From Pseudomonas bubulae (GTDB taxonomy: Bacteria; Pseudomonadota; Gammaproteobacteria; Pseudomonadales; Pseudomonadaceae), in contig NZ_CP146077.1 of assembly GCF_037023725.1 (NCBI RefSeq), forward strand, positions 1,773,001 to 1,837,000: DNA of 64,000 nt, written 5' to 3'. This document shows, one piece after another, positions 30,400-47,808 of the stretch. The translations under genes and the position numbers were made by a program. Position 1 is the first letter of the stretch; each line of letters starts with the position of its first letter. The notes beneath the pieces were generated by a model, which saw nothing but the letters and a program-made list of their open reading frames with translations, was not told the origin of the DNA and ran no database searches.

Positions 30400-31791
30400 T
30401 TACCTGACAATTTTATCGACATGAATATCCAGCTTTTTCAGGCGGTACCAGAAGCTGCGCTCGGATATGCCGATTAACTGCGCCGCCGCAGCCTGTACGC
30501 CATTGGCCTGTTGCAGGGCACTTAGAATGTAGGCTTTTTCGACTTCGGCCAAGGCGGCTTCCAGGTCGGGGGGCACGCTCGGTCCGGGGGCAAGCAAGGC
30601 ACTGCTCTGGCCGGGTTGGGCACTGAACAGGTAGGGCGGCAGGTCACTGTCCTGGATAGTGCTGCTATTGGCCACAATGGTGGCGCGCTCCACGCAGTTT
30701 TGCAGTTCGCGAATATTGCCCGGCCAACTGTACTGGGCCATCGCCTGCAAGGCGCTGGGGCTGAAACCGGTGATGCGTTTGCCTGCGGTAGCACCCAGGT
30801 TATGGGCAAAGTGCCGCGCCAGCGAGGCGATGTCTTCAACGCGTTCGCGCAACGCGGGCAACGGAATCGGGAAGACGTTCAGGCGGTAATACAAGTCTTC
30901 GCGAAACTCCTTGTTGGCTACGGCTTGCAGCAGGTTTTTGTTGGTCGCGGCGATGACCCGCACATCCACCTTGCGCTCTCGCGGATCCCCCACTGGCTCG
31001 ATCACCCGTTCTTGCAGCGCCCGCAGGATTTTTGCCTGCAAGGCCAGGGGCATATCGCCCACTTCATCGAGAAACAGGGTGCCCTTGTCGGCCTGCATAA
31101 AGCGCCCGACCCTGTCTGCTACGGCGCCGGTAAACGCGCCTTTGCGGTGGCCGAACATCTCGCTTTCAAGCAGCCCCTCAGGAATCGCCGCACAGTTGAC
31201 CGCGACAAAGGGTTTGTCGGCGCGGCTGCCGTGTTTGTGGATGGCGCGGGCGACCATCTCTTTGCCGGTACCGCTTTCGCCAGTCAGCAGGATCGTGGCG
31301 TTGCTCTCGCGTACCGAGTCGATGGCCTGCAGCACCCGGCGAAAGCTTGGGCTGTCGCCAATCAGGCTGTCGATGTGCTGGTGCTCGTCCAGCTCGGCGC
31401 GCATGCGCGCGTTGTCGCGCAAAATGTCGCGAAACTGCAGGGCTTTGCTGACCGTAATATCCAGCTCGTCGATATCAAAGGGCTTGGCGATGTAATCGTA
31501 GGCGCCGTTACGTATGGACTGTACGGCGTTTTTTACCGTGCTGTAGGCAGTCATTACAATCACTGGCAGGTTCGGGTAACGCTGTTTGATCTCGGCCAGT
31601 AACTGCGGGCCGTCCATGCCGGGCATGCGCCAGTCGCTGATCACCAGGTCGATATCTTCCTGCTCCAGAACTTCAAGTGCCTGCAGGCCGTTGCTGGCAG
31701 TGAAGACCTGAATCCGGTTCTGGCTCAGTGCCGAGCTGAGCAAGTCGCAGAGTTTGGGCTCATCGTCGACCACCAGCACGTTATGACTCAT
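30400..31791 (-). CDS. Sigma54-dependent response regulator (NtrC class, MifR-like)
   Basis: 463 residues: receiver domain with phospho-acceptor Asp53 (VISDWRMPGMDG), AAA+ domain with Walker A GESGTGKE at 171-178 and an intact GAFTGA loop at 218-223 for sigma54 contact, and a Fis-type helix-turn-helix C-terminus (QAAAAQLIGISERSFWYRLKKL). It should activate sigma54 promoters when phosphorylated by the kinase encoded just upstream, whose stop overlaps its start as ATGA. From memory it resembles MifR of P. aeruginosa, but I am not sure. It is the last gene of a six-gene unit whose own promoter is sigma54-type, so autoregulation is likely. Confidence 0.9.
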   Translation of the reverse strand: MSHNVLVVDDEPKLCDLLSSALSQNRIQVFTASNGLQALEVLEQEDIDLVISDWRMPGMDGPQLLAEIKQRYPNLPVIVMTAYSTVKNAVQSIRNGAYDYIAKPFDIDELDITVSKALQFRDILRDNARMRAELDEHQHIDSLIGDSPSFRRVLQAIDSVRESNATILLTGESGTGKEMVARAIHKHGSRADKPFVAVNCAAIPEGLLESEMFGHRKGAFTGAVADRVGRFMQADKGTLFLDEVGDMPLALQAKILRALQERVIEPVGDPRERKVDVRVIAATNKNLLQAVANKEFREDLYYRLNVFPIPLPALRERVEDIASLARHFAHNLGATAGKRITGFSPSALQAMAQYSWPGNIRELQNCVERATIVANSSTIQDSDLPPYLFSAQPGQSSALLAPGPSVPPDLEAALAEVEKAYILSALQQANGVQAAAAQLIGISERSFWYRLKKLDIHVDKIVR

Positions 31792-33548
31792 GTTTCATCC
31801 CCTCCGTGGGCCGGAATGTACAGGTTGAAGGTGGCTCCGACGTCTTTCTCGCTGATGCATTCGATGCGTCCGTCGTGGCTGTCCATGATGGAGAACACTT
31901 TGGCCAGGCCCAGCCCCGTGCCTGAGGCTTTGGTCGTCACAAAGGGCGTGAAAATACGCTCAAGCATATCGGGTGCGATTCCTTCTCCGGTATCAGCAAT
32001 GCCTATTACTGTGTAGTCCTCTTCGCGGGAAATGCGTACGGTCAGGCATCCGCCCTCAGGCATGGCGTCGATGGCGTTGATGATCAGGTTCAGGCACGCC
32101 TGTTTGAGTTGTCCGGCATCGGCGTACAGGGTCGCACCGGGCGCCTGATCGTCGATGTGGGCATCAATAGTGTGGCTTTCCAGCTCCGGTTCGCAGAAAC
32201 CCAGAATGTCTTCGACCAGAGGCCGCGCCAGCTGCGGCGCACGCACGGGGGCGCTGGGCTTGGCGAATTCGAGAAACTCGGTGATCAGGTCATTGATGCG
32301 GGTCACTTCGCTGACCACATACTCCAGATGGCGCTTGTCGGTTTCACCCAGATCGGCCCGGCGGTGCAACAGTTGGGTCGCGGTTTTGATAATGCCCAGC
32401 GGATTGCGGATTTCGTGGGCCAGGCCCATGGCCACCTCGCCCAGGGCATGCAGGCGGTCGCGGCGACGCAATTGGGCTTCGAGATGATGCAGCTCGCCCA
32501 GTCGTGCGGTCATATGGTTGAAGGTGCTGCTCAGCTCGGCCAGTTCGTCGTTGCCCGACACCGCCACGCGTTGGTTGTAGTCCCCGGCAGTGACGGCGCG
32601 TACCCCTTCGGAGAGGTCGCGCAACGGCCGGGTAAGGCGTTCGGAAACCAGCCAGCCGACGGTCAGCGACAGTACCGAGCCGACCAGGAAGATCAACGCG
32701 AACAGGTTGCTCTGGTTGACCAGCCCCACCAGGCTGCTATGGCGCAGCAGGCCACTGTAGATCACCCCTTGCAGCTCACCGGTGTCGTTGAGGATGGGCC
32801 AGTACAAGCCGCTGTAGCGGCTGGTGAATTGTTCGCTGGGCTGACGGGTTTCCCGCAGGGTTTGTTCGATGGCGCCGGGCACCATCAGCTGGCGGTCTTC
32901 GAAACGCTGGCTGGAGAATATCTCGGCAAAGCCTGCCGTATTGGACAGGTACAAACGCAAGTCGAGGGAGTGCACGTCGGCCACGCTGGTCAGAAAGCTG
33001 CTGTCCATATAGGTAGCCACCAGCAGCTGATAGTTCACTCCATCCTGGCTGGTGGCAAAGGTCGAGACTACGGTGCCGGTTGGCACACCGCCGACATTGA
33101 TAGTTTGCAGTACAGCGTTGGGGCTCAGGCTGATCTGGTCGACAATGGTGTCGCTGGCGGTACTGAAAATCACTTTGTGGTCGCTGTCACGGATCAGCGC
33201 GACCACGTCTATGCCCATGGCTTCGGCGATATCGGCAGTCAGCCGGTCATGGCGGATGGCCTTGCTGGAGGACGGCGGGTGGGCGTGTTGCAGAAGCAGC
33301 TTGGCGGCGCGGGCGTTGTCCGCGAGGATTTCGCTGATCTCGTCCTTGACGATTTTGGTCGACTCCTGCAGCCAGACCCGTACGTTACTGTCGAAAATCT
33401 GCGACAGGGTGGTCGCTGCCAGTTCGGCAGCAATCATGGTCGGGATCACGCTGACCAGCCAGAACGCCAGCACCAGTTTGCGCTGTACGGTCCAGCGCGA
33501 CACTTTGAAGGGTTGTGGCTGGCGCGGTGTTTTGGGCGTGGTGGGCAT
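31788..33548 (-). CDS. Membrane sensor histidine kinase partnered with the sigma54 regulator
   Basis: 586 residues: membrane helix near 25-50, a periplasmic dCache/PAS-like sensor of about 230 residues, a second helix (about 283-303, LFALIFLVGSVLSLTVGWLVS), HAMP, a HisKA helix with the phospho-His in GLAHEIRNPLG (near residue 385), and an HATPase domain (NLIINAIDAMPEGG, IADTGEGIAPDM, SGTGLGLAKV). The ligand is unknown. Its start overlaps the stop of the acyltransferase gene by one base (TAATG), and its stop overlaps the regulator, so the sensor is produced with the enzymes it probably controls. It resembles the MifS class from memory. Confidence 0.9.
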   Translation of the reverse strand: MPTTPKTPRQPQPFKVSRWTVQRKLVLAFWLVSVIPTMIAAELAATTLSQIFDSNVRVWLQESTKIVKDEISEILADNARAAKLLLQHAHPPSSSKAIRHDRLTADIAEAMGIDVVALIRDSDHKVIFSTASDTIVDQISLSPNAVLQTINVGGVPTGTVVSTFATSQDGVNYQLLVATYMDSSFLTSVADVHSLDLRLYLSNTAGFAEIFSSQRFEDRQLMVPGAIEQTLRETRQPSEQFTSRYSGLYWPILNDTGELQGVIYSGLLRHSSLVGLVNQSNLFALIFLVGSVLSLTVGWLVSERLTRPLRDLSEGVRAVTAGDYNQRVAVSGNDELAELSSTFNHMTARLGELHHLEAQLRRRDRLHALGEVAMGLAHEIRNPLGIIKTATQLLHRRADLGETDKRHLEYVVSEVTRINDLITEFLEFAKPSAPVRAPQLARPLVEDILGFCEPELESHTIDAHIDDQAPGATLYADAGQLKQACLNLIINAIDAMPEGGCLTVRISREEDYTVIGIADTGEGIAPDMLERIFTPFVTTKASGTGLGLAKVFSIMDSHDGRIECISEKDVGATFNLYIPAHGGDET

Positions 33549-34672
33549 TAGTACTCGCTTATCGCAGCCGCCAGTGCCGGGTCGTGGCGGTCAGGGCGAA
33601 TGAACAGTTTGACCAGTTTGAGTGCGTTATTGATCAGCCAGTTGCGATGCCGGAAAAACAGCGTATTGCTTTGAAAGGTGCAGCCCAGACGAATCTTGCT
33701 CGCGTAGCCGGCCTGACCGCATTCGTACAGGGCAATATTGTGACGTATGCAGTAATCGACATTCACCAGCCAACTCCTGAAGTACAGATTGTAGTCACGG
33801 GTGAGCTCAAGGTCGTGACCAAAAAACTTGTCGATCAGACGGTGTTCGTCAATCAACACCAGATTGAACGCCACCAGTTGATCGTCGAGCCAGTACAAAA
33901 CGCACACTGCCCGGTCGCCGAGTTGTTGGAGGATACCGGTGAAATAGGTCGCTGGTAAGCGCTCCAGTTGCAGATCACTGCGCGCCAGGCTGGCCTCGTA
34001 CAGGCGCATGATTTCAGGCAAGACGTCGTCAATTGCGTTGCGCCATTCCACCCGTGGGCCAGGCGTACGCAGTTTGCGGCGCATGTCTTTGCGGGTGGAC
34101 TTGCCCAGCGAGCCAAGGTAGCCGTCCACTGACCCAAAGGGCACGGGCAGCGTCGCACTGGGCAAGCCGGGCATGGCCTGAAAGTCCGCCGCCTTGCAAC
34201 TGTGCGCCCAGTCAGCGTCATGGCTGGGGACGTCCTTGACGGCAATCAGGCCGATACCCAGGCGGGCCGCATCGGTCTGGGCCAGGGTCAGCAACCGGGC
34301 GAGCAGGGCAGGGCGCTGCGCCGCCTGTACATGACTGGCCGTTCCCGCACTGCATTGTTCGGTCACCGGTGAGCCGATGGCGTAAAGCTTTAGCTGCACC
34401 AACCCCGGGAGTGCGCGATTGAGTTTTTCGGTAAAGCGTTTGCCGATGCCCTGGACCGTGGTGTCGAGGCGATAGCACGTGGTGAACGCAGTCGCTGCGG
34501 CAATCAGGGTGGAACCTTCGAACAGCGTCAGGTAACGCCATGCAAAGCCTTCAATCCCGGCTTTTTCGACGGCCATAATGTAATCCCAATCCTCCAGGGC
34601 ATCTGGAAAACAGTCATTCCAGGCTTCACGGTCGATTGCCTGAATGGATGAAAAGGCTTGGGCTGTAATCAT
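33548..34672 (-). CDS. FemAB-like (GNAT fold) acyltransferase, DUF482-type
   Basis: 374 residues, no signal peptide or membrane segment. The sequence pattern (WDYIMAVEKAGIEGFAWRYLTLFEGSTLIAAATAF, then SLGKSTRKDMRRKLRTPGPRVEW, VLYWLDDQLVAFNLVLIDEHRLIDKFFGHD, LYFRSWLVNVDYCIRHNIALYECGQAGYASKIRLGCTF) is that of the FemAB-like/DUF482 tandem-GNAT proteins annotated as peptidoglycan biosynthesis/recognition. Acyl donor and acceptor are not known; related enzymes use aminoacyl-tRNA or acyl-CoA/ACP. The location between a hydrolase and a kinase gene suggests N-acylation of an amine made by the aminotransferase of the same operon, which is inference. Confidence 0.78.
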   Translation of the reverse strand: MITAQAFSSIQAIDREAWNDCFPDALEDWDYIMAVEKAGIEGFAWRYLTLFEGSTLIAAATAFTTCYRLDTTVQGIGKRFTEKLNRALPGLVQLKLYAIGSPVTEQCSAGTASHVQAAQRPALLARLLTLAQTDAARLGIGLIAVKDVPSHDADWAHSCKAADFQAMPGLPSATLPVPFGSVDGYLGSLGKSTRKDMRRKLRTPGPRVEWRNAIDDVLPEIMRLYEASLARSDLQLERLPATYFTGILQQLGDRAVCVLYWLDDQLVAFNLVLIDEHRLIDKFFGHDLELTRDYNLYFRSWLVNVDYCIRHNIALYECGQAGYASKIRLGCTFQSNTLFFRHRNWLINNALKLVKLFIRPDRHDPALAAAISEY

Positions 34673-34687
34673 GGGGCGTCCTTGGGC

Positions 34688-35554
34688 TCAGGCCTGCTTG
34701 AGGTACTCGACAGGGACCGGTGCCGTGCGGCTGTTTTTCTTGATAAAGGCGTCACTCAGTTCGATCACGCGGCGGTATTGCAGGTCGACGGTGATCATGT
34801 GATAGCAGTTGTCGAGCAGCACCTTGGTCACCGGCCCGCCCAGATGGCGTTCGACGTAATCGGCGTTCCAGCGGCTGGTGATATCGTCTTCAATGGAGTG
34901 CAGCACCAGAGCTTTGGTGGTGATCGAAGGCATGCGTTTTTTCACCACGGCATTCATCCGGTGCAGTTCACGCACGGTGATCCCTTCCATCGTCAACAAC
35001 CCGGCATTGCTGCTCTCGCCGGCTTTCATCTGGCGCTCGACAATGGCCCTCAGGCGCTGGTTTTTAATACCGTAGGGCGGCTTTTCCTCAAAGCTGCACA
35101 GGTGCACACCAAAGGGGATCTTCATCAGCAGCGGGGTCATAAAGGCCAGCTTGTTGATGCTCCAGCCGTCATAGCGCAAGGTCGTGGAGTACATCAACAG
35201 CCCGGCGACCTGGCCCGGGTGTTCGGAGGCCAGGTACATCGACATTACCGCACCCATCGACAGCCCGCCGACGAACACCTGCTGGTGGCGCTGGCGGATC
35301 CCGGCAAAGGTCTTGCGCACGCCTTCATACCAGTCCAGCCAGCCGGTGGCCTGCAGGTCGCTGTTGTCACCGCAGTGCCCGGCCAGGGTGGGGACGTACA
35401 CCGTGCACGTCCCGTCTTTTGCCAGCCCCTGGGCAACCCGACGCAACTCCGTCGGGGTGCCGGTAAGGCCGTGGATCAACAAGACCCCGACCTCACCCGT
35501 GCCGAGAACGAAACCGGTGTTGCCTTCGCCCAGATCGATCTCTGCCCCGTTCAC
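34688..35554 (-). CDS. Alpha/beta hydrolase, carboxylesterase/monoglyceride-lipase type
   Basis: 288 residues with a clear alpha/beta-hydrolase core: oxyanion segment LLIHGLTGTP (25-34), nucleophile Ser99 in GGLSMGA, acid Asp223/224 (HSIEDDITS) and His252 (NCYHMITVD). The lid and the spacing are like Est30-type carboxylesterases. It could cleave an ester, thioester or amide of a pathway intermediate, or act as an editing thioesterase. The stop of the aminotransferase overlaps its start by 4 bp, and the acyltransferase starts 15 bp after its stop. Confidence 0.85.
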   Translation of the reverse strand: MNGAEIDLGEGNTGFVLGTGEVGVLLIHGLTGTPTELRRVAQGLAKDGTCTVYVPTLAGHCGDNSDLQATGWLDWYEGVRKTFAGIRQRHQQVFVGGLSMGAVMSMYLASEHPGQVAGLLMYSTTLRYDGWSINKLAFMTPLLMKIPFGVHLCSFEEKPPYGIKNQRLRAIVERQMKAGESSNAGLLTMEGITVRELHRMNAVVKKRMPSITTKALVLHSIEDDITSRWNADYVERHLGGPVTKVLLDNCYHMITVDLQYRRVIELSDAFIKKNSRTAPVPVEYLKQA

Positions 35555-36945
35555 CGTTTCATGGCCCGAGCCAGCAGGCGATCGAGCAGGGCGATGCCCA
35601 GGTCGATTTCGGCGTAGCTGATTTCCAGCGACGGCGCCAGGGTGATAACGTTCTTGTAGTAGCCGCCCACGTCGAGAATCAGACCCAGACGTTTGCCGTC
35701 GATTTCGATATCCCCCTTGATGCCTTCCTCAACCATGAAGTCGAGAGTGGCCTTGTCCGGGGTAAAACCGTCCGGGCCGCAGATTTCGCAGCGCAGGGCC
35801 AGGCCCAGGCCATCGACGTCACCGATGATCGGGTAGCGTTTTTGCAGATCTTGCAGGCCGTCGAGGAAGTACTTGCCCTTGGCCATGACCATCGCGCCAT
35901 AGTCGACTTCGCTGGTCATCTTGAACATTTCCAGGCCCACCGCAGTACCCAGCGGGTTGGAGGCGAAGGTGGAGTGGGTCGAGCCCGGCGGGAATACCTT
36001 GGGGTTGATCAGCTCTTCACGGGCCCAGATGCCGCCCAGCGGGTTGAGGCCGTTGGTCAGTGCCTTGCCGAACACGATGACGTCGGGTTTGACGTCGAAG
36101 TGTTCGATCGACCACAGCTTGCCAGTGCGCCAAAAGCCCATCTGGATTTCGTCAACCACCATGAGAATGCCGTGCTGATCCAGTACGTGCTTGAGCTCGC
36201 TGTAGAAGTTCATCGGCGGGATTACATAGCCGCCGGTGCCCTGGATCGGCTCGACGTAGAACGCGGCATATTCGCTCTGGCCGACTTTCGGGTCCCACAC
36301 GCCGTTGTATTCGGTCTCGAAAAGACGGGCGAACTGTTGCACGCAGTGGCTGCCGTACTCTTCCTTGGTCATGCCTTTTGGCCCGCGGAAGTGGTACGGG
36401 AACGGGATGAAGTTGGCGCGTTCGCCAAAGTGGCCGTAACGGCGACGGTAGCGGTAGCTCGAGGTGATCGATGAGGCGCCCAGGGTGCGGCCGTGGTAAC
36501 CGCCCTCGAAGGCGAACATCAGGCTTTTGCCGTTGCTGGCGTTACGCACCACCTTCAGCGAGTCTTCGATGGATTGCGAGCCGCCGACGTTGAAGTGCAC
36601 ACGACCGTCGAGGCCGAACTTGTTTTTGGCGTCGACTGCAATGCGCTCCGACAGCTCGATCTTGCCCTTGTGCAGATACTGGCTGGCGATCTGCGGCAGG
36701 GTGTCGATCTGTTGCTTGAGGGCGTTGTTCAGGCGCGGGTTGGAATAACCGAAGTTGACTGCCGAGTACCACATTTGCAGGTCGAGGTAGGCCTGGTCTT
36801 CGGTGTCCCACACGTAGGAGCCTTCGCAGCGGCTAAAAATGCGCGGTGGTTCGATGTAGTGAACGGTGTCGCCGTACGAGCAGTACTTGGCTTCTTTTTC
36901 CAGAAGAATCTGGTCTTCAGGGGTAGCGATTCGAATATCAGACAT
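35551..36945 (-). CDS. Class III PLP-dependent aminotransferase
   Basis: 464 residues from MSDIRIATPEDQILLEKEAKYC. Fold-type I landmarks are present: GGSQSIEDSLKVVR and FEGGYHGRTLGAS in the phosphate-binding region, Asp265-Glu266-Ile-Gln (VVDEIQMGFWRTGK) and the PLP Schiff-base Lys294 (VFGKALTNGLNPLGG). The family interconverts an aldehyde or keto group and an amine at a terminal carbon (omega-amino acids, diamines, amino sugars), usually with glutamate, alanine or 2-oxoglutarate. The substrate here is unknown. Its start lies within the last codons of the HAD phosphatase gene (8-bp overlap), tying the two enzymes together. Confidence 0.88.
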   Translation of the reverse strand: MSDIRIATPEDQILLEKEAKYCSYGDTVHYIEPPRIFSRCEGSYVWDTEDQAYLDLQMWYSAVNFGYSNPRLNNALKQQIDTLPQIASQYLHKGKIELSERIAVDAKNKFGLDGRVHFNVGGSQSIEDSLKVVRNASNGKSLMFAFEGGYHGRTLGASSITSSYRYRRRYGHFGERANFIPFPYHFRGPKGMTKEEYGSHCVQQFARLFETEYNGVWDPKVGQSEYAAFYVEPIQGTGGYVIPPMNFYSELKHVLDQHGILMVVDEIQMGFWRTGKLWSIEHFDVKPDVIVFGKALTNGLNPLGGIWAREELINPKVFPPGSTHSTFASNPLGTAVGLEMFKMTSEVDYGAMVMAKGKYFLDGLQDLQKRYPIIGDVDGLGLALRCEICGPDGFTPDKATLDFMVEEGIKGDIEIDGKRLGLILDVGGYYKNVITLAPSLEISYAEIDLGIALLDRLLARAMKR

Positions 36946-37633
36946 GATTGAAGAGTTCCTGCTGTTCACGAGAATAGTGGGGCGCGTTGGCGGCATGGCT
37001 CGGCAGTTTGGCGAGCAGGGCCGGGAGTTCGGCAAAGGAGTCAAATTGTGCGTACGGGATACCGTTGCGCTCGCAGTGTTCGGCCAGGCCGTCCCTGGCA
37101 AAGACGAAATCGGCGCCAGAGGCCACGCACATGTCGGAGCGGCCATCGCCAATCACCAGCACGCGTTTGCCGTCGGGGGCGGATTTGCACTTGCAGTTGC
37201 CCGAGGCGGCACGGCAGGCGTCGCTGGAATAAGGGAAGTCGATGCGCCAGCTGTTCTGGTCGACCTGACGCAGGCGGTTGGCCAGGATCGGCAACAGGCT
37301 TACGTAGTTACGGGCCAGAATGCGGGCGATGGCTTGTTCGATGCCGTCACTGACGACCTCGATGGAGGCGCCAAGACCGATGACGTGGTCGACGAAGTCG
37401 GGGAAGTCAGGGTCAATCTCAACGCTGTCGAAATAGGCCAGCAGCTCGGCAGGCGTGGCTTTGACCAGCGACAGCTGGCGGCTCAGGCATTCACGCGAAC
37501 CGATGTCACCCTGCAACCATTGGTCTTCGATCGCTTCCCAGCTGGGGTCGGCGAAACGTTGAAGAATGTTGTCGATGACGTCGGTACGGGTAATGGTCCC
37601 GTCGAAATCACACACGATATGCCATTGCATCAT
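36938..37633 (-). CDS. HAD-IB phosphatase, MtnX/SerB-like, first gene of the operon
   Basis: 231 residues; I start at the Met that has AGGA 8 nt upstream (two codons after the first ATG). HAD motif I is HIVCDFDGTITRTD (two catalytic Asp), motif II/III VVSDGIEQAIAR and motif IV VLVIGDGRSDMCVASGADFVFARDGL. A CKCKSAPDG cysteine pair sits in the cap-proximal region, as in MtnX-like enzymes. It should remove phosphate from a small phosphorylated metabolite in the cytoplasm; methionine salvage is unlikely because no other mtn gene is nearby. It is preceded by a sigma54 promoter and begins the six-gene transcript. Confidence 0.85.
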   Translation of the reverse strand: MMQWHIVCDFDGTITRTDVIDNILQRFADPSWEAIEDQWLQGDIGSRECLSRQLSLVKATPAELLAYFDSVEIDPDFPDFVDHVIGLGASIEVVSDGIEQAIARILARNYVSLLPILANRLRQVDQNSWRIDFPYSSDACRAASGNCKCKSAPDGKRVLVIGDGRSDMCVASGADFVFARDGLAEHCERNGIPYAQFDSFAELPALLAKLPSHAANAPHYSREQQELFNHV

Positions 37634-37683
37634 CTGCATTGTCCTGTCGAAAAGGCGCGCTTTTTGCGCTTGCCAGAGGACAT

Positions 37684-37699
37684 AGCATTGACTGTGCCA
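37684..37699 (-). promoter_or_regulatory. Sigma54 (-24/-12) promoter of the six-gene operon
   Basis: Minus strand TGGCACAGTCAATGCT: -24 GG and -12 GC with exactly 10 bases between, 2 mismatches to TGGCACGNNNNTTGCW. Predicted start near 37673, about 40 nt before the HAD start codon. It fits the sigma54 activator encoded in the same operon. Confidence 0.75.
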
Positions 37700-37762
37700 A
37701 CTATTGAAAGCCCCGTGGGCTGGGGGTTTGCGCGGATTTGACGGTGACTTTCGGGTTTGGAA

Positions 37763-37788
37763 CTACAATTTTTGTAGCTTGCTACAAA
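37763..37788. promoter_or_regulatory. Palindromic activator (UAS) candidate upstream of the sigma54 promoter
   Basis: TTTGTAGCTTGCTACAAA (37771-37788) is a perfect dyad with 8-bp arms, and a third half-site CTACAA at 37763-37768 pairs with TTGTAG. It lies about 75 bp upstream of the -24 element, a usual enhancer distance. It also lies 75-100 bp before the divergent mipA-like gene. Confidence 0.65.
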
Positions 37789-37861
37789 CAACATGAGTGC
37801 TTGCGCAGGCCGCGCTAAAAAGGGATTGATGCGCGCATAGAACCTCTATGGAACCCTCGTG

Positions 37862-38626
37862 ATGAAAACTCCGGTCTGTGCTTTTTTGCTGCTCACTTTG
37901 TTGGGCGTCAGCGCGGCTGCCCATGCCGCAGACGGCCCCAGTGGGGAAGTGGGCATGGGGATTGGCTATCAGCCGTATGATCCAAGCGCCAGCCGCTACC
38001 AGACAGTGCCATTGCCGTATTTTGATGTGGACTGGGGCGATGTCAGCCTCAATACCGATGACGGCCTGACCTGGAGTGCTTTCAAGGCCAACGGCTGGAG
38101 CGCCGGGCCCTTGCTCAATTATGTGCCGGGGCGCAATGCCAATGGTTCGCTGCGGGGCCTGCGCGATGTTTCAGACATGGCCATGTTCGGCGGCTTTGTG
38201 CAGTACAGCCCGGCTGACTTCTGGCGTGTCTACGCACAGCTCGGGCAGGCGGTGGGTGGTGCAGGCGGTCAAGGCGGGGTGCTGGGTCAGGTCGGGGGCG
38301 AGTTGGGTTACCCGCTGGGGCTGGGGATTATCGGCAGCAGCCAGTTGGCGGTGCACTTTGCTGATGGTCGGCAGATGTCGACCTTTTTTGGCGTAAGTGA
38401 CAGCGAGGCGCAGGCGTCAGGGATTTCCGCGTACAAGGCCAGTGGCGGCCTCCAGAATGTTACCTTGACCCAGAATTTCGAGTTTCCGCTGACCGCGAAC
38501 TGGTCGCTGGTGACCAGTGCCAGCTGGACACGCCTGCTGAGGGCGGCGGCGGACAGCAGCATCGTACGCGAGCAGGGCAATGTGAATCAGGGCGCGGTGC
38601 AGACGGCGGTAAGTTACAAATTCTGA
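37862..38626 (+). CDS. MipA/OmpV-family outer-membrane protein
   Basis: 254 residues. Signal peptide MKTPVCAFLLLTLLGVSAAAHA (cleaved near 23), then the barrel pattern EVGMGIGYQPYDPSASRYQTVPLPYFDVDWGDVSLNTDDGLTW, typical of MipA/OmpV, ending in VSYKF with terminal aromatic. MipA proteins scaffold murein enzymes or act as small barrels; the Pseudomonas role is unclear. I use the ATG at 37862, one codon after a GTG. It is divergent from the six-gene operon and shares its 220-bp control region, so it could be under the same activator. Confidence 0.85.
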   Translation: MKTPVCAFLLLTLLGVSAAAHAADGPSGEVGMGIGYQPYDPSASRYQTVPLPYFDVDWGDVSLNTDDGLTWSAFKANGWSAGPLLNYVPGRNANGSLRGLRDVSDMAMFGGFVQYSPADFWRVYAQLGQAVGGAGGQGGVLGQVGGELGYPLGLGIIGSSQLAVHFADGRQMSTFFGVSDSEAQASGISAYKASGGLQNVTLTQNFEFPLTANWSLVTSASWTRLLRAAADSSIVREQGNVNQGAVQTAVSYKF

Positions 38627-38688: not shown

Positions 38689-39108
38689 TCAATGTTCCGG
38701 TTCACCATCGGCCAGCAGCGCAATCCCGCCGACAATCACCGCCACGCCTGCCCAGTGCAGTGCGCTGATTTGCTCGCCAAGGCCCAGCCAGGAGCCCATC
38801 AGCACCCCGACAAATACCAGTGAACTCAAGGGAAACGCCAGCGACAGGCTGCTGCGGCGCAATATCAGCATCCAGACAAAAAACGCGCCGAAATAACAGG
38901 CAATGGCCACCCATACTCCCGGGTTGAGCAGCACGGCCTGGAGCCACTGCAGGGTGAAGTCCATCTGTCCCAATTGATCGCCACCGATTTTGGTGGCTAT
39001 TTGCCCTGCGCTCTCGAGAGCAATCAACAAGGCCCACAGCACAATCGTGCCCAAACGCCCGTGCAGCCAGCCGTTATCCGGGGCTTTTAACCCGTCAGTG
39101 TTTGCCAT
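38689..39108 (-). CDS. Four-helix SMR/EamA-type transporter subunit A
   Basis: 139 residues with four predicted membrane helices: WALLIALESAGQIATKIG, VWVAIACYFGAFFVWMLILRR, SLAFPLSSLVFVGVLMGSWLGLGE, WAGVAVIVGGIALLA. The pattern is that of half-size DMT proteins such as ArnE/ArnF or paired SMR subunits. It is preceded by a second, non-identical four-helix gene 11 bp upstream, suggesting a heterodimer. With the arginase-fold gene at the head of the operon, a guanidino or polyamine-like substrate is imaginable but not shown. Confidence 0.78.
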   Translation of the reverse strand: MANTDGLKAPDNGWLHGRLGTIVLWALLIALESAGQIATKIGGDQLGQMDFTLQWLQAVLLNPGVWVAIACYFGAFFVWMLILRRSSLSLAFPLSSLVFVGVLMGSWLGLGEQISALHWAGVAVIVGGIALLADGEPEH

Positions 39109-39119
39109 TGCTCAACTCC

Positions 39120-39494
39120 TCAAGCTGCGGTGATGCAGACCAGCATCACTCCAAGGGTAATAACCAGGGTGCCCATCCAGCGCCGACGGCTGACGTGTTC
39201 GCCCAGGAACACCTTGCCGGCGAATACCACACCGCAATACGCCAGCGCAGCGGCCGGGAATAGCAAGCTCAAGGGTGCCCTCGACAGGGCCTCCAGCCAG
39301 ACGAAGAACTCAATCACGTAAGCGCCGACCCCAGCCCACAGCATCGGTGCACTAAATACCTGACCCCAGAAGGCATTCAGGCGAAAACCACCCTCCAGTT
39401 CCGGCAAGCGGTCCAGGCCGATTTTGAAACACAGCTGGCCGATAACATCGAGCACAATGGAAAACGCCACCAGCGCAATTACGATCAAGGACAT
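39120..39494 (-). CDS. Four-helix SMR/EamA-type transporter subunit B
   Basis: 124 residues, four helices: LIVIALVAFSIVLDVIGQLCFKIGLDRLP with a conserved acidic residue in helix 1, APMLWAGVGAYVIEFFVWLEAL with a Glu in helix 2, PLSLLFPAAALAYCGVVFAGKVFLGE and MGTLVITLGVMLVCI. The pieces FPAAALAY and GKVFLGE are classic for the EamA/SMR superfamily. It overlaps the end of the arginase-fold gene by 10 bp and lies 11 bp before subunit A. Function as an antiparallel heterodimer with its neighbour is inferred from the pairing. Confidence 0.78.
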   Translation of the reverse strand: MSLIVIALVAFSIVLDVIGQLCFKIGLDRLPELEGGFRLNAFWGQVFSAPMLWAGVGAYVIEFFVWLEALSRAPLSLLFPAAALAYCGVVFAGKVFLGEHVSRRRWMGTLVITLGVMLVCITAA

Positions 39495-40411
39495 GGGAAC
39501 AGCTCCTCGAATAAATGGATCAGCGCTTCATTGGTGGTTGAGTTGCGCAGCAGATCGCTTTCACTCCAGCGCCCAGGTGCTGGCTGGTCCGATCGGGCCT
39601 CCCAGCGTTTGAGCACATTGCGGTGCGCAGCCTTGGCAAACTCACCGCAAACATCAATACCCAATACCCGCTTGCTGGTGGCCAGGGCACGAAGGGCGTG
39701 AAGCAAGTGGGTCAGGCGCATACCACCCTGATCCCAGTTGGTGGCGGCGTCTTCGCTGGCGAGTACGTCTTTGTCCACGGTTATCCAGATCGCTTCGGTA
39801 GGCAGACTGCGGATCAACTCGTCGAGAAAGGTCGGCCAGTCCTGATCGGCGAGGTTGCGCCAGTGCAACAGGTTCTCGTGCTGCTCGTGCCCTGCGCCGT
39901 CGCCGATTCGGCCCCAGACCTTGGTGGGGGCATGCTGCCAGGGGAATAGTTGCAAATCGCCACGGCACAGGGCTCCGAGATTTGCGCCCTTGAACTGCGG
40001 GTTTTGCAGGTCGTCACTGCAGGGGCCGAGGGTGACTATGCGTTTGATGTTCGGCAGCTTCAAGGCGCGGTTGACCCACGAACCGCAATGGCGGCGGGGG
40101 GCAAAGCGTACCCAGTCAGGATGGTTGTCGAAGTGGATCAGGGTGATCGGTTCGGGCAAGTCCGCGAGCAAGGCCGGGGTCAGGTGGTGATAGTCGCCGG
40201 AGCCTATAAAAAAGATTTCTGGCCGCTGCGTGGAGCGTTTCGGCCGTTGTTGCAGGCGTTCAGCGAAGCGCCGGTAATTGCGTTCGGTGGACCACAGACG
40301 CAGTTGCGGCCCCAGTTCCAGCAAGTCCATGCGTGTGGCACGACCGTCGGTCAGACGTTGCTTAATCGGTGCTTGTGAGGTCAGGCTGTGATCAAGATCG
40401 AGAATATTCAA
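39485..40411 (-). CDS. Arginase/ureohydrolase-fold (UPF0489-like) protein
   Basis: 308 residues from a TTG start (NILDLDHSL), the only sensible start, with GGGG about 12 nt upstream. Metal-binding elements of the ureohydrolase fold can be seen: GSGDYHHLTPALL, LIHFDNHPDWV (near 95-105), WITVDKDVL (near 205) and GIDVCGEF (near 250). Known relatives cleave guanidino compounds or are uncharacterised (UPF0489). As first gene before two small transporter subunits, it may act on a substrate that these export or import. An 11-bp dyad directly upstream may be its operator. Confidence 0.75.
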   Translation of the reverse strand: MNILDLDHSLTSQAPIKQRLTDGRATRMDLLELGPQLRLWSTERNYRRFAERLQQRPKRSTQRPEIFFIGSGDYHHLTPALLADLPEPITLIHFDNHPDWVRFAPRRHCGSWVNRALKLPNIKRIVTLGPCSDDLQNPQFKGANLGALCRGDLQLFPWQHAPTKVWGRIGDGAGHEQHENLLHWRNLADQDWPTFLDELIRSLPTEAIWITVDKDVLASEDAATNWDQGGMRLTHLLHALRALATSKRVLGIDVCGEFAKAAHRNVLKRWEARSDQPAPGRWSESDLLRNSTTNEALIHLFEELFPCP

Positions 40412-40417
40412 AGTGTG

Positions 40418-40472
40418 ATTTACCCCATGTCATCGCCGCCGATCCAAGCAGGGCGGGCTTTATGGGGTAAAT
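40418..40472 (-). promoter_or_regulatory. Long-spaced dyad upstream of the arginase-fold operon
   Basis: ATTTACCCCAT (40418-40428) and ATGGGGTAAAT (40462-40472) are exact reverse complements separated by 33 bp. The near arm starts 7 bp before the TTG start codon. It could be a looping operator or the stem of a leader RNA. Confidence 0.55.
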
Positions 40473-40564
40473 GCAAGGGGCGGGCCAAACAACTTGGCCA
40501 GTGGGGGCCGGGGTTGCCAGCGAGGTTGTCACTGCTGTTTATCTGGCAAACCGCGTCATGTGTA

Positions 40565-40590: not shown

Positions 40591-40926
40591 TCAGTGCAGG
40601 CGTACCCAAACGCTGACCAACACGGTCGCGGCCATCAGCCAGGCTACGGCGGCCAGCGCCAGCGAGGCTTCAAGGCGCATGCGATCGACCAGCACGTACA
40701 GGGCAGCGAGGTACACGAAGTAAGGAATGATCGACCACATGCCGAACACAATGGTGGTTTTCAGGTCGTCCACCGAGCGGCCTTTGCCGACGATGTAGTG
40801 GGCGATAAGGGCAAATGTTGGAAACAGCGGCACAAGCCCTGCGATGTAGTAGTTTTTGGTTTTGGCCAGCATGGCCAGAATGATCACCACTCCAGCGCCC
40901 AGTGCAGCTTTGAGAATCAGATCCAT
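40591..40926 (-). CDS. glpM: GlpM-family small membrane protein
   Basis: 111 residues with about four helices: MDLILKAALGAGVVIILAMLAKTKNYYIAGLVPLFPTFALIAHYIVGKGRS matches the GlpM family described in P. aeruginosa next to the glycerol genes and linked there to alginate production. The start overlaps the stop of aauR by one base (TGATG), so here it is the last gene of the aauS-aauR transcript instead of being next to glpD. The mechanism is unknown to me. Confidence 0.85.
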   Translation of the reverse strand: MDLILKAALGAGVVIILAMLAKTKNYYIAGLVPLFPTFALIAHYIVGKGRSVDDLKTTIVFGMWSIIPYFVYLAALYVLVDRMRLEASLALAAVAWLMAATVLVSVWVRLH

Positions 40927-42251
40927 CAGTGCGCGAGCCCGTATTTTTTGACTTTATCAAAGAGGGTGGTCTTGGCCATGCCCAGTTCCTGGCTGGCCTG
41001 GGTCAGGTTGCCGCCGCTGCGTTGCAGGGCATCGTTGAGCAGGTTGCGTTCGAACGCTTCCACCGCCTCGGAAAACCCCAGCCCCTGCGCTGCATTGCTC
41101 CCCGGCTTTTTGAACGCCGGAAGGCCCAGGGCAAAACGTTCGGCCACGTTGCGCAGTTCCCGCACATTGCCCGGCCAGTCATGGCTCATCAGGCTGGACA
41201 GGGTCTGGTTATCCAGCTCCGGGGCCGCACGGTCGAAACGCAGTGATGATTGCTGCAGGAAGTATTCAAACAATTGCAGGATGTCTTCGCGGCGTTCGCG
41301 CAAAGGAGGCAGCTCAAGTGTGACCACGTTCAGGCGGTAGTACAGGTCGCTGCGAAACTGGCTGGCCTTGCTCAGTTGGTCGAGGTCGGATTTGGTCGCC
41401 GCGATAACCCGGCAGTCCACATCGATGCTCTGGTTGGAGCCCAGGCGCTCCAGAGTGCGCTCCTGCAAAACCCGCAGCAGTTTGATCTGCAGGTTGAGCG
41501 GCATGCTTTCCACTTCGTCGAGAAACAGCGTGCCGCCATGGGCGTGTTCGATTTTGCCGATGCGGCGTTTGCCTGCCCCGGTAAAGGCGTTGGCTTCGTG
41601 GCCGAAAATTTCGCTTTCAAACAGGTTTTCCGGCAGACCACCGCAGTTGAGGGCAACAAACTGCTGGGGCTGGCGGCGGCTGAAGTCGTGCAGGCAGCGG
41701 GCGACCAGCTCCTTGCCGGTACCGGTTTCACCTTCAATCAGCACGTTGGCTGAAGTATCGGCGACGTTGGCTATCAGTTCGCGCAACTGCTGCATGGCCG
41801 GCGAGCGGCCGATGATGCGTCCTTCAAGTGAATCACGCTCGGCAAGCTGACGGCGCAACGACCAGACTTCCCGCGCCAGGCTGCGCTGCTCCAGCGCACG
41901 ACGGGCCACATCAACCAGGCGTTCGGGGGAGAAGGGTTTCTCCATAAAGTCATAGGCACCGTCACGCATGGCGCCCACGGCCATGGAAATATCGCCATGC
42001 CCGGTAATCAATACCACCGGCAGGGTGCGGTCGCGGGCCTTGAGGTGCTTGAGCAGTTCAAGACCATCCATTCCGGGCAGGCGGATATCACTGATGACGA
42101 TACCCGGGAAGTTGTCGCCTACCAGCGCCAGCGCCTGTTCGGCACTGCTGACGCCTTCGCTGCGAATATCTTCGAGCGCCAGCGCCTGCTGGCAGCCGAG
42201 CAGAACATGGGGATCGTCTTCAACAATCAGGACCGTCAGGTCGTTATTCAT
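40926..42251 (-). CDS. aauR: Sigma54 response regulator AauR (acidic amino-acid utilisation)
   Basis: 441 residues: receiver with Asp55 (IVISDIRLPGMDG), AAA+ domain with GETGTGKE and the sigma54-contact loop in the form NAFTGAGKRRIG, and a Fis-type helix-turn-helix ending NLTQASQELGMAKTTLFDKVKKYGL. This DctD-like type in Pseudomonas controls aspartate and glutamate uptake and catabolism. The AauR inverted repeat and a sigma54 promoter are present upstream of aatJ in this window. It overlaps aauS by ATGA and glpM by one base. Confidence 0.9.
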   Translation of the reverse strand: MNNDLTVLIVEDDPHVLLGCQQALALEDIRSEGVSSAEQALALVGDNFPGIVISDIRLPGMDGLELLKHLKARDRTLPVVLITGHGDISMAVGAMRDGAYDFMEKPFSPERLVDVARRALEQRSLAREVWSLRRQLAERDSLEGRIIGRSPAMQQLRELIANVADTSANVLIEGETGTGKELVARCLHDFSRRQPQQFVALNCGGLPENLFESEIFGHEANAFTGAGKRRIGKIEHAHGGTLFLDEVESMPLNLQIKLLRVLQERTLERLGSNQSIDVDCRVIAATKSDLDQLSKASQFRSDLYYRLNVVTLELPPLRERREDILQLFEYFLQQSSLRFDRAAPELDNQTLSSLMSHDWPGNVRELRNVAERFALGLPAFKKPGSNAAQGLGFSEAVEAFERNLLNDALQRSGGNLTQASQELGMAKTTLFDKVKKYGLAH

Positions 42252-47715: not shown

Positions 47716-47731
47716 AGCATGAGTCGTGCCA
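47716..47731 (-). promoter_or_regulatory. Sigma54 promoter of aatJQMP
   Basis: Minus strand TGGCACGACTCATGCT: full -24 TGGCACG and -12 ATGC with correct 10-base GG-to-GC spacing. The predicted leader is about 100 nt. Confidence 0.82.
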
Positions 47732-47808
47732 GCCCTGGCATTAAAGTCTAACCTGCTGATTTATAACGAATTAAAGTTTTATGTCGGGACTTCGGTGGCA
47801 TGCAGATG

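Follow-up and report, generated by a model that had tools for sequence, protein, structure and literature searches.

A sigma54-controlled gene cassette of Pseudomonas and other Proteobacteria apparently for an amine-bearing, probably lipid-like envelope compound

Results

Layout of the locus

The window analysed is a stretch of 64,000 nucleotides from Pseudomonas bubulae (contig NZ_CP146077.1). Six open reading frames, transcribed in the order HAD-AT3-ABH-FEM-HK-RR, are joined by an 8-bp overlap, a 4-bp overlap, a 15-bp gap, TAATG and ATGA (Table 1). All six were confirmed in place on the minus strand, as in a preliminary description of the sequence, and their family assignments are borne out by domain and profile matches; the AT3-ABH junction reads GTGA, not ATGA as described there, ABH starting with GTG. 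The limits of the unit, formerly drawn at 30400..37639, proved too narrow, since a divergent MipA gene adjoins it in all 38 Pseudomonas loci examined and in many genomes Arg-EamA2-EamA1 (38689-40411, minus strand) go with it as well.

Table 1. Genes and regulatory sites of the cassette, in positions of the window
Feature	Position	Strand	Basis
RR, NtrC-type sigma54 activator: receiver, AAA+ with GAFTGA, Fis HTH	30400-31791	-	domain matches
HK, sensor kinase: periplasmic, possibly Cache-like sensor, HAMP, HisKA, HATPase	31788-33548	-	domain matches
FEM, FemAB_like/Acetyltransf_6 transferase, optional tailoring enzyme	33548-34672	-	Pfam gathering scores
ABH, alpha/beta hydrolase, monoacylglycerol-lipase-like	34688-35554	-	PF12146; nearest PDB sequence 4lhe, a monoacylglycerol lipase
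AT3, class III aminotransferase	35551-36945	-	Pfam PF00202
HAD, MtnX-like HAD-IB phosphatase, first operon gene	36938-37639	-	TIGR01489; nearest PDB sequence 2fea
sigma54-type (-24/-12) promoter TTGGCACAGTCAATGCT upstream of HAD	37684-37700	-	score; 38/38 Pseudomonas loci
Putative RR operator, overlapping palindromes TTTGTAGCAAGCTACAAAAATTGTAG	37763-37788	-	conserved block to ~37804; 38/38
MipA/OmpV-family protein, divergent from HAD	37859-38626	+	PF06629
EamA1, small EamA/SMR-like membrane protein, ArnE/ArnF-like below cut-off	38689-39108	-	25/38 loci
EamA2, small EamA/SMR-like membrane protein, partner of EamA1	39120-39494	-	25/38 loci
Arg, arginase-superfamily metal hydrolase, TTG start	39485-40411	-	PF00491; 16/38 loci
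sigma54-type (-24/-12) promoter TTGGCCCGCCCCTTGCA upstream of Arg-EamA2-EamA1	40472-40488	-	promoter score

Core enzymes

HAD falls into the MtnX-like HAD-IB subfamily (83.2 bits, cut-off 81.55) but stays far below the MtnX equivalog model TIGR03333 (99.0 bits, cut-off 303.2); its motif residues are conserved in at least 95% of 21 aligned sequences. Methionine salvage, considered for an MtnX-like HAD beside MetE and MetR, was rejected: the equivalog cut-off is missed, MetE and MetR matches occur in 8 and 24 of the 38 Pseudomonas loci, and neither gene was seen adjoining the core in the plasmid regions read.

AT3 is a class III aminotransferase (245.9 bits) in which Lys-294, presumably the PLP-lysine, is invariant in 25 aligned sequences. 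Ornithine and GABA aminotransferases carry a gate glutamate in a QGE motif. AT3 forms a distinct, highly conserved subfamily without this glutamate, having QGTGG and Thr-237 in 25/25 aligned sequences, and the position is occupied by Glu, Asp or Ala in the five PDB homologues listed (Glu in 7vno and 2eo5). The nucleophile of ABH is serine in 18 and cysteine in 3 of 21 aligned sequences. Judged by eye, the ABH frame runs into a FEM-like stretch in two loci (L085 and L086). None of the PADLOC models matched HAD, AT3, ABH, FEM or Arg at E 0.001, and a known anti-phage defence system was rejected as a reading.

FEM and Arg

FEM exceeds the Pfam gathering scores of FemAB_like (43.4 bits, cut-off 27) and Acetyltransf_6 (35.6 bits, cut-off 22). 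Sequence searches against the PDB returned weak, unrelated matches only. The predicted model has the fold of the aminoacyl-tRNA-dependent Fem ligases, amino-acid-transferring Fem ligases being its closest matches; it is also close to streptothricin-type amino-acid ligases, and N-acyltransferases match too. The FemAB-like family proposed earlier is thus retained, but the function of an acyltransferase is not established, because the nearest matches transfer amino acids.

Arg belongs to the arginase/ureohydrolase superfamily (34.7 bits, cut-off 22). Its DNHPD and DKD sequences (DxHxD and DxD motifs), which we take to hold the metal-binding residues, are invariant in 16 aligned sequences, and its profile matches agmatinase and arginase structures weakly (best E 3.3e-05). 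Arg without FEM was found in one of 24 FEM-less loci, where the contig ends short of the position that FEM occupies in L077.

Two-component system, promoters and operator

The domains of HK and RR, with GAFTGA at residue 218 of the latter, are those of an NtrC-type system. The best NCBIfam matches are AtoS for the kinase (221 bits, cut-off 646) and AtoC for the regulator (483 bits, cut-off 714). In Pfam, the sensor of HK in this locus comes closest to DUF1959 (E 0.0028), followed by sCache_3_3 (E 0.11), all matches being below the Pfam cut-offs. Among 19 HK sensors, sCache_3_3 matches 17, all weakly (best E 0.0011); a PDB profile search was likewise weak (best E 0.017), and inspection of the kinase by eye revealed no amino-acid-type Cache motif.

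Sigma54 promoters were scored with a consensus and weights of our own choosing. A site scoring at least 13.2 lies upstream of HAD in 38/38 Pseudomonas loci, as does the operator pattern, which occurs 38 times in all in those loci and nowhere else in them. A -24/-12 promoter with upstream palindromes at the target operon, as expected for an NtrC-type regulator, is therefore present in every one. Sites of at least 13.2 also precede Arg in 16/16 Arg-bearing Pseudomonas loci and are found in 8/9 with EamA2 but without Arg; no operator was found at the Arg promoter. A genome-wide operator search allowing up to two mismatches gave 20 places versus 31 for the reversed control; in view of this lack of enrichment, a genome-wide regulon derived from the operator was rejected. 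Among five loci returned by the operator search, a site of at least 14 lies downstream of the palindrome only in the locus of this window.

Outside Pseudomonas, a HAD promoter scoring at least 13.9, a cut-off picked after the scores had been seen, is present in 3/3 loci with an orthologous RR versus 1/17 without. The exception, L078, resembles the RR-bearing L077 and has a cut contig. Between cut-offs of 12.9 and 14.1 the RR-less loci with a promoter go from 3 to 0 of 17 (Fisher p 0.0175 to 0.0009). Weaker or farther sigma54-like sites precede HAD in the RR-less L086 (13.6) and L085 (12.9); in L075, which also lacks RR, such a site (14.2) precedes Arg.

Conservation in Pseudomonas

AT3 was detected in 60 of 199 Pseudomonas genomes (E 1e-150), and neighbourhoods were counted in 38 loci. 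The order MipA (divergent)-HAD-AT3-ABH-HK-RR is retained in all 38, so it is not due to chance. MipA, HAD, AT3, ABH, HK and RR are the fixed core; FEM (27/38), the EamA pair (25/38) and Arg (16/38) are optional. FEM is absent from 11 of the 60 AT3-bearing genomes, where the other core genes stay.

The preliminary description had read the locus as a single compact operon joined to a two-component system of its own. This holds, the link resting on the 38/38 co-conservation, the conserved sigma54 promoter and operator before HAD, and the tracking of the promoter with RR outside Pseudomonas (3/3 loci with the orthologous RR, one or two of 17 without it, depending on the cut-off). Co-conservation of all six genes across Pseudomonas, proposed as a check, was found for HAD, AT3, ABH, HK and RR but not for FEM. 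A self-contained six-gene pathway is not supported: FEM can be missing, and the cassette extends to MipA, Arg, EamA, desaturase, ketosynthase/ACP and exporters.

Occurrence and neighbours outside Pseudomonas

Beyond the genus, the cassette enzymes are found in further Proteobacteria and on plasmids of rhizobia, agrobacteria and Xanthomonas, 34 plasmid records carrying them; 24 chromosomal and nine plasmid loci were sampled. Their partners include in part a ketosynthase with an acyl carrier protein (ACP), a desaturase, a cyclopropane (CFA) synthase and a DevBCA-like exporter. A ketosynthase lies beside the core in 6/24 chromosomal loci, with ACP genes read next to it; the other 18, some of them on short contigs, have no ketosynthase nearby. 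FA_desaturase relatives, two of them confirmed by Pfam, occur in 5/9 plasmid and 6/38 Pseudomonas loci, with no match in the other 32 of the latter. A CFA synthase is annotated in 4/9 plasmid loci.

Two EamA genes are annotated in 8/9 plasmid loci. In the window, EamA1 scores 38.3 bits against ArnE and 34.2 against ArnF, and EamA2 32.2 and 50.2, versus equivalog cut-offs of 92 and 99. A DevC-like permease is found in 7/24 chromosomal and 3/9 plasmid loci. Neither ketosynthase, ACP nor DevC was matched in any of the 38 Pseudomonas loci. The extra ABC genes were first read as a polyamine importer, an idea abandoned once they proved to match models for DevC, adaptor and NodT proteins. The two Agrobacterium regions also carry multidrug efflux genes at a greater distance upstream, perhaps without connection to the cassette. 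Co-occurrence with acyl carrier or export genes was also proposed earlier as a check; ACP and DevC-type genes are seen in part of the loci outside Pseudomonas and in none of the 38 within it.

Discussion

The cassette appears to make an amine-bearing, probably lipid-like envelope compound under its own sensor system. More specifically, we put at about even the chances that it is a horizontally mobile, sigma54-controlled cassette that makes an aminated, lipid-like compound and places it in or beyond the envelope. The kinase would sense a periplasmic cue and phosphorylate RR, which would bind the conserved palindromes and fire the observed sigma54 promoter of the HAD operon. HAD and AT3 may draw a phosphorylated keto precursor from central metabolism and turn it into an amino alcohol or a related amine, and ABH may act on an acyl ester or thioester. 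Where present, FEM, judging from its fold, would transfer an amino acid or acyl group onto the amine. Since the only case of Arg without FEM lies on a cut contig, and in view of the FEM fold, Arg may trim the FEM product by hydrolysing a C-N bond, for example of a guanidino group. The EamA pairs would flip the product over the inner membrane, with MipA or DevBCA/TolC-type exporters serving outer steps; in other lineages, the acyl part would be assembled or altered by ketosynthase/ACP, desaturase and cyclopropane synthase. The lipid part is read mainly from those lineages, because in Pseudomonas ketosynthase, ACP and DevC are absent from the loci and a desaturase from most of them. An amine modified by a transferase and linked to lipids, among the options first proposed, agrees with this reading.

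Several points stand against an aminated lipid. MtnX-type enzymes, the relatives of HAD, act on a soluble phosphate compound; the EamA scores are well below the ArnE/ArnF cut-offs, and FEM is dispensable. The operator has no genome-wide enrichment and is not found at the Arg promoter, and sigma54-like sites occur in RR-less loci.

Instead of an envelope lipid, the product could be a small amphiphilic molecule that is secreted as a signal or an antibiotic-like metabolite, exported by EamA and DevBCA/TolC-type pumps with MipA as outer-membrane partner and sensed by the kinase. The DevC-like permeases of chromosomal and plasmid loci, the patchy and plasmid-borne distribution, the ketosynthase and ACP of some lineages and the modelled fold of FEM, near streptothricin-type ligases, are consistent with such a molecule. 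However, a reading of the loci, short of a full scan, brought up neither an NRPS nor a modular PKS gene, the CFA synthase and lipase-like ABH suit lipids at least equally well, and the Agrobacterium efflux genes, farther upstream, may be unrelated; we consider this explanation rather unlikely.

A catabolic or salvage role is less probable still. HAD and AT3 would then degrade a phosphorylated or amino compound that ABH frees from a lipid and that induces the NtrC-type system. The conserved set has neither importer nor dehydrogenase, and its neighbours ketosynthase, ACP, desaturase and CFA synthase are biosynthetic, although MtnX-like HAD, lipase-like ABH, arginase-family hydrolases and NtrC/AtoC-type regulators are all common in catabolism. 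Ectoine-type logic combines an aminotransferase with a GNAT-fold enzyme; a soluble osmolyte or signal amine that FEM would N-acylate, an option of the preliminary description, resembles it in outline and accords with the N-acyltransferases among the model matches, but fits poorly with the 11 FEM-less genomes and the recurring lipid and export modules and is very improbable.

Within the aminated-lipid reading, the cassette might define a new proteobacterial class of aminolipids, a speculative proposal that we hold to be unlikely. AT3 and HAD would provide an unusual amino-alcohol head group, FEM would use charged tRNA to add an amino acid, possibly arginine, and Arg would make a trimmed cationic form; lineage-specific lipid and transport modules would place the aminolipid in the envelope, with a separate two-component sensor in each lineage.

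A description of the cassette was not found in the openly licensed literature searched, by which absence from print is not implied. That Pseudomonas, other Proteobacteria and rhizobial plasmids have one enzyme core in common, in part with a sensor dedicated to it, suggests that they share an envelope or export compound to which, as far as this search reached, no genes have been assigned. Through the conserved operator and promoter, the conditions that turn the cassette on can be studied directly, and its nesting into core, FEM, Arg and lipid enzymes lends itself to genetic dissection of the product.

Among known systems, HK and RR share domain order and the GAFTGA motif with AtoS/AtoC and other NtrC-type systems, but score below the AtoS/AtoC equivalog cut-offs and have their own conserved operator at the locus. 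HAD shares its HAD-IB subfamily with MtnX, the methionine salvage phosphatase represented by 2fea, and differs from it in equivalog score and gene partners. Fem-type ligases (FemA, FemX and the aminoacyl-tRNA-dependent Sbb17/Sba18) and MprF are among the closest known systems, FEM being Fem-ligase-like in fold. The aminoarabinose-lipid flippase ArnE/ArnF likewise consists of two short EamA-type membrane proteins with neighbouring genes, from which EamA1 and EamA2 differ in score (32-50 bits versus cut-offs of 92-99). In some lineages, adaptor, ATPase, DevC-like permease and NodT-type outer-membrane protein adjoin the core as in a DevBCA/TolC exporter, although the DevC match of a core neighbour reaches 93 bits against a cut-off of 290. 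In the RtxA serinol-phosphate pathway of rhizobitoxine, an aminotransferase reaction on dihydroxyacetone phosphate and subsequent dephosphorylation yield an amino alcohol (PMC3222319). The likeness to HAD and AT3 is one of reaction type; here the two are separate proteins accompanied by lipid and export partners.

Composition and junctions of the gene cluster

All six genes that the preliminary description had joined into one self-contained pathway were found, densely packed on the minus strand. Pfam and NCBIfam identified them as an MtnX-like HAD-IB phosphatase (HAD), a class III aminotransferase (AT3), an alpha/beta hydrolase (ABH), a FemAB_like/Acetyltransf_6 protein (FEM), a HAMP-HisKA kinase (HK) and an NtrC-type activator in which GAFTGA is present (RR). 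The described 8-bp overlap, 15-bp gap, TAATG and ATGA junctions were recovered; the second junction, given as ATGA, is a GTGA overlap. The FEM protein is 99% identical to that of P. bubulae, its nearest named relative, which places the window in the P. fragi/bubulae group. Cache-like matches to the HK sensor are weak, as is the window's own top match, DUF1959. Genes at 40591-42251 (-), adjoining that for an arginase-superfamily hydrolase (Arg), encode a small membrane protein, presumably GlpM-like, and a second NtrC-type regulator; this pair also neighbours the cassette in many Pseudomonas loci.

Conservation within Pseudomonas

AT3 is present in 60 of 199 Pseudomonas genomes (E 1e-150), a count that includes one partial match (G140), and FEM in 49 of the same 199 (E 1e-60), all among the AT3-bearing 60. 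The 38 loci read comprise the window, 26 loci reached via FEM, which bias the sample to FEM and include one nearly identical to the window (L022), and 11 from AT3-bearing genomes without FEM. The order MipA-HAD-AT3-ABH-HK-RR, with the MipA/OmpV-family gene divergent, is kept in all 38, so MipA is as constant as the genes previously proposed as the core. FEM occurs in 27 of the 38, Arg in 16 and a fatty-acid desaturase in six; each of the small EamA/SMR-like membrane proteins EamA1 and EamA2 is encoded in 25. Because HK directly follows ABH in the 11 FEM-less loci, FEM is a predicted tailoring module. In one of these (L097) a stretch resembling the start of Arg remains, by eye, upstream of EamA2, and this remnant suggests possible decay of Arg upon FEM loss.

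Sigma54 promoters and a putative operator

Candidate sites were scored with a sigma54 consensus and our own weights. Over the two strands of the 64-kb window together, five sites score at least 13.9, two of them being the HAD and Arg promoters.

Predicted regulatory features of the cassette
Feature	Position	Location
Sigma54-type -24/-12 promoter	37684-37700	44 bp upstream of HAD
Second sigma54-type -24/-12 promoter	40472-40488	upstream of Arg
Putative operator TTTGTAGCAAGCTACAAAAATTGTAG	37763-37788	upstream of HAD promoter

A site of at least 13.2 lies upstream of HAD in 38/38 Pseudomonas loci, upstream of Arg in all 16 that carry it, and upstream of EamA2 in eight of nine without Arg. A loose TTTGTAGCAAGCTACAAAAATTGTAG pattern occurs in all 38 HAD upstream regions, with 38 matches in total in 1.37 Mb (both strands of the Pseudomonas loci); these loci are related, and the operator and promoter occurrences are not 38 independent events. 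Genome-wide the operator is not enriched (20 places versus 31 for the reversed control), and no operator of this type was found at the Arg promoter. The top-scoring sigma54-like site of the window, CTGGCACGACTCATGCT at 47716-47732 (-), is outside the cassette. REP-like repeats (GTGGGAGCGGGCTTGCTCGC and similar) stand upstream of the Arg promoter in several Pseudomonas loci and, by eye, differ by species.

The cassette outside Pseudomonas

In three overlapping samples AT3 was matched in 6/369, 26/398 and 7/293 genomes, Pseudomonas included, giving 25 non-Pseudomonas genomes. Twenty-four loci were read, several on short contigs; a partial match with a stop (G712) was left out. HAD and ABH are each found in 20 of the 24, Arg in 12, FEM in 11, DegT in eight, a DevC-like permease in seven, a FabF-like ketosynthase in six and an orthologous RR in three; EamA1 and EamA2 are found in 12 each at a looser cut. 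ACP-like genes adjoin the ketosynthases in five loci (L053, L057, L074, L083 and L088; Pfam on that of L074). By eye, the ABH reading frame of L085 and L086 runs on into a stretch like the FEM N terminus. Among the best 120 of 3751 matches, Arg relatives also occur in Xylophilus, Paracidovorax, Comamonas, Rhodanobacter and Dyella. A sulfotransferase-family gene comes after the most distant AT3 (L090, 55% identity), near which neither HAD nor ABH was found.

AT3 was also found in 34 of 72,556 plasmid records: Rhizobium (16), Agrobacterium (10), Bartonella (5), and Xanthomonas, Sinorhizobium and Phyllobacterium (1 each). Among nine plasmid regions read, HAD and ABH are present in eight, FEM and Arg in all. 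In its most complete rhizobial form the cassette reads HAD-AT3-arginase-EamA-desaturase-ABH-FEM-EamA-CFA synthase, followed by a convergent MipA gene; rhizobial and Pseudomonas desaturases share 55-57% identity. Two plasmids of R. acidisoli FH23 (L115, L116) carry one cassette copy each. A midpoint-rooted tree of 40 AT3 sequences places Pseudomonas as the sister group of Rhizobiaceae, and the Bartonella sequence among gammaproteobacterial ones. Together with the plasmid locations, these placements point to probable spread of the cassette by horizontal transfer.

Regulation was compared in the 20 loci outside the genus in which HAD was called. A site of at least 13.9 precedes HAD in 3/3 loci with an orthologous RR (L053, L077, L087) versus 1/17 others (L078; Fisher p 0.0035), a cut picked after the scores were seen; at 13.2, two of the 17 have one (L078, L086; p 0.0088). 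L078 resembles the RR-bearing L077, and its contig stops before the place of the L077 HK and RR. In L075, which lacks RR, a site scoring 14.2 lies upstream of Arg. A CTACA...TGTAG palindrome is present in L077 and L078; that of L087 differs, and L053 has none like it. In four of five Rhizobium/Sinorhizobium plasmid loci, genes for a kinase and a short response regulator lie upstream of HAD, the gene table of the fifth giving a regulator only; the sensor module therefore appears to be exchangeable.

Proposed product and comparison with known systems

We take the product to be a putative aminated lipid-like compound. An acyl part is suggested by the ketosynthase/ACP, desaturase, cyclopropane synthase and lipase-like hydrolase, an amine part by AT3, FEM and Arg, and a link to the envelope by the EamA pairs, DevBCA-like exporters and MipA. 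HAD, AT3 and ABH would build the core, FEM would decorate it and Arg would trim the decorated product. Against the lipid reading, no ketosynthase or ACP match was found in the 38 Pseudomonas loci, most of which also lack a desaturase.

All the cassette proteins fall into known families, and regulated cassettes for biosynthesis and export have precedents. This gene combination is not one that we recognise. It was not found in the openly licensed papers searched. RtxA (PMC3222319) offers an analogy by which one concrete option for the pathway would be a serinol-type start from dihydroxyacetone-phosphate.
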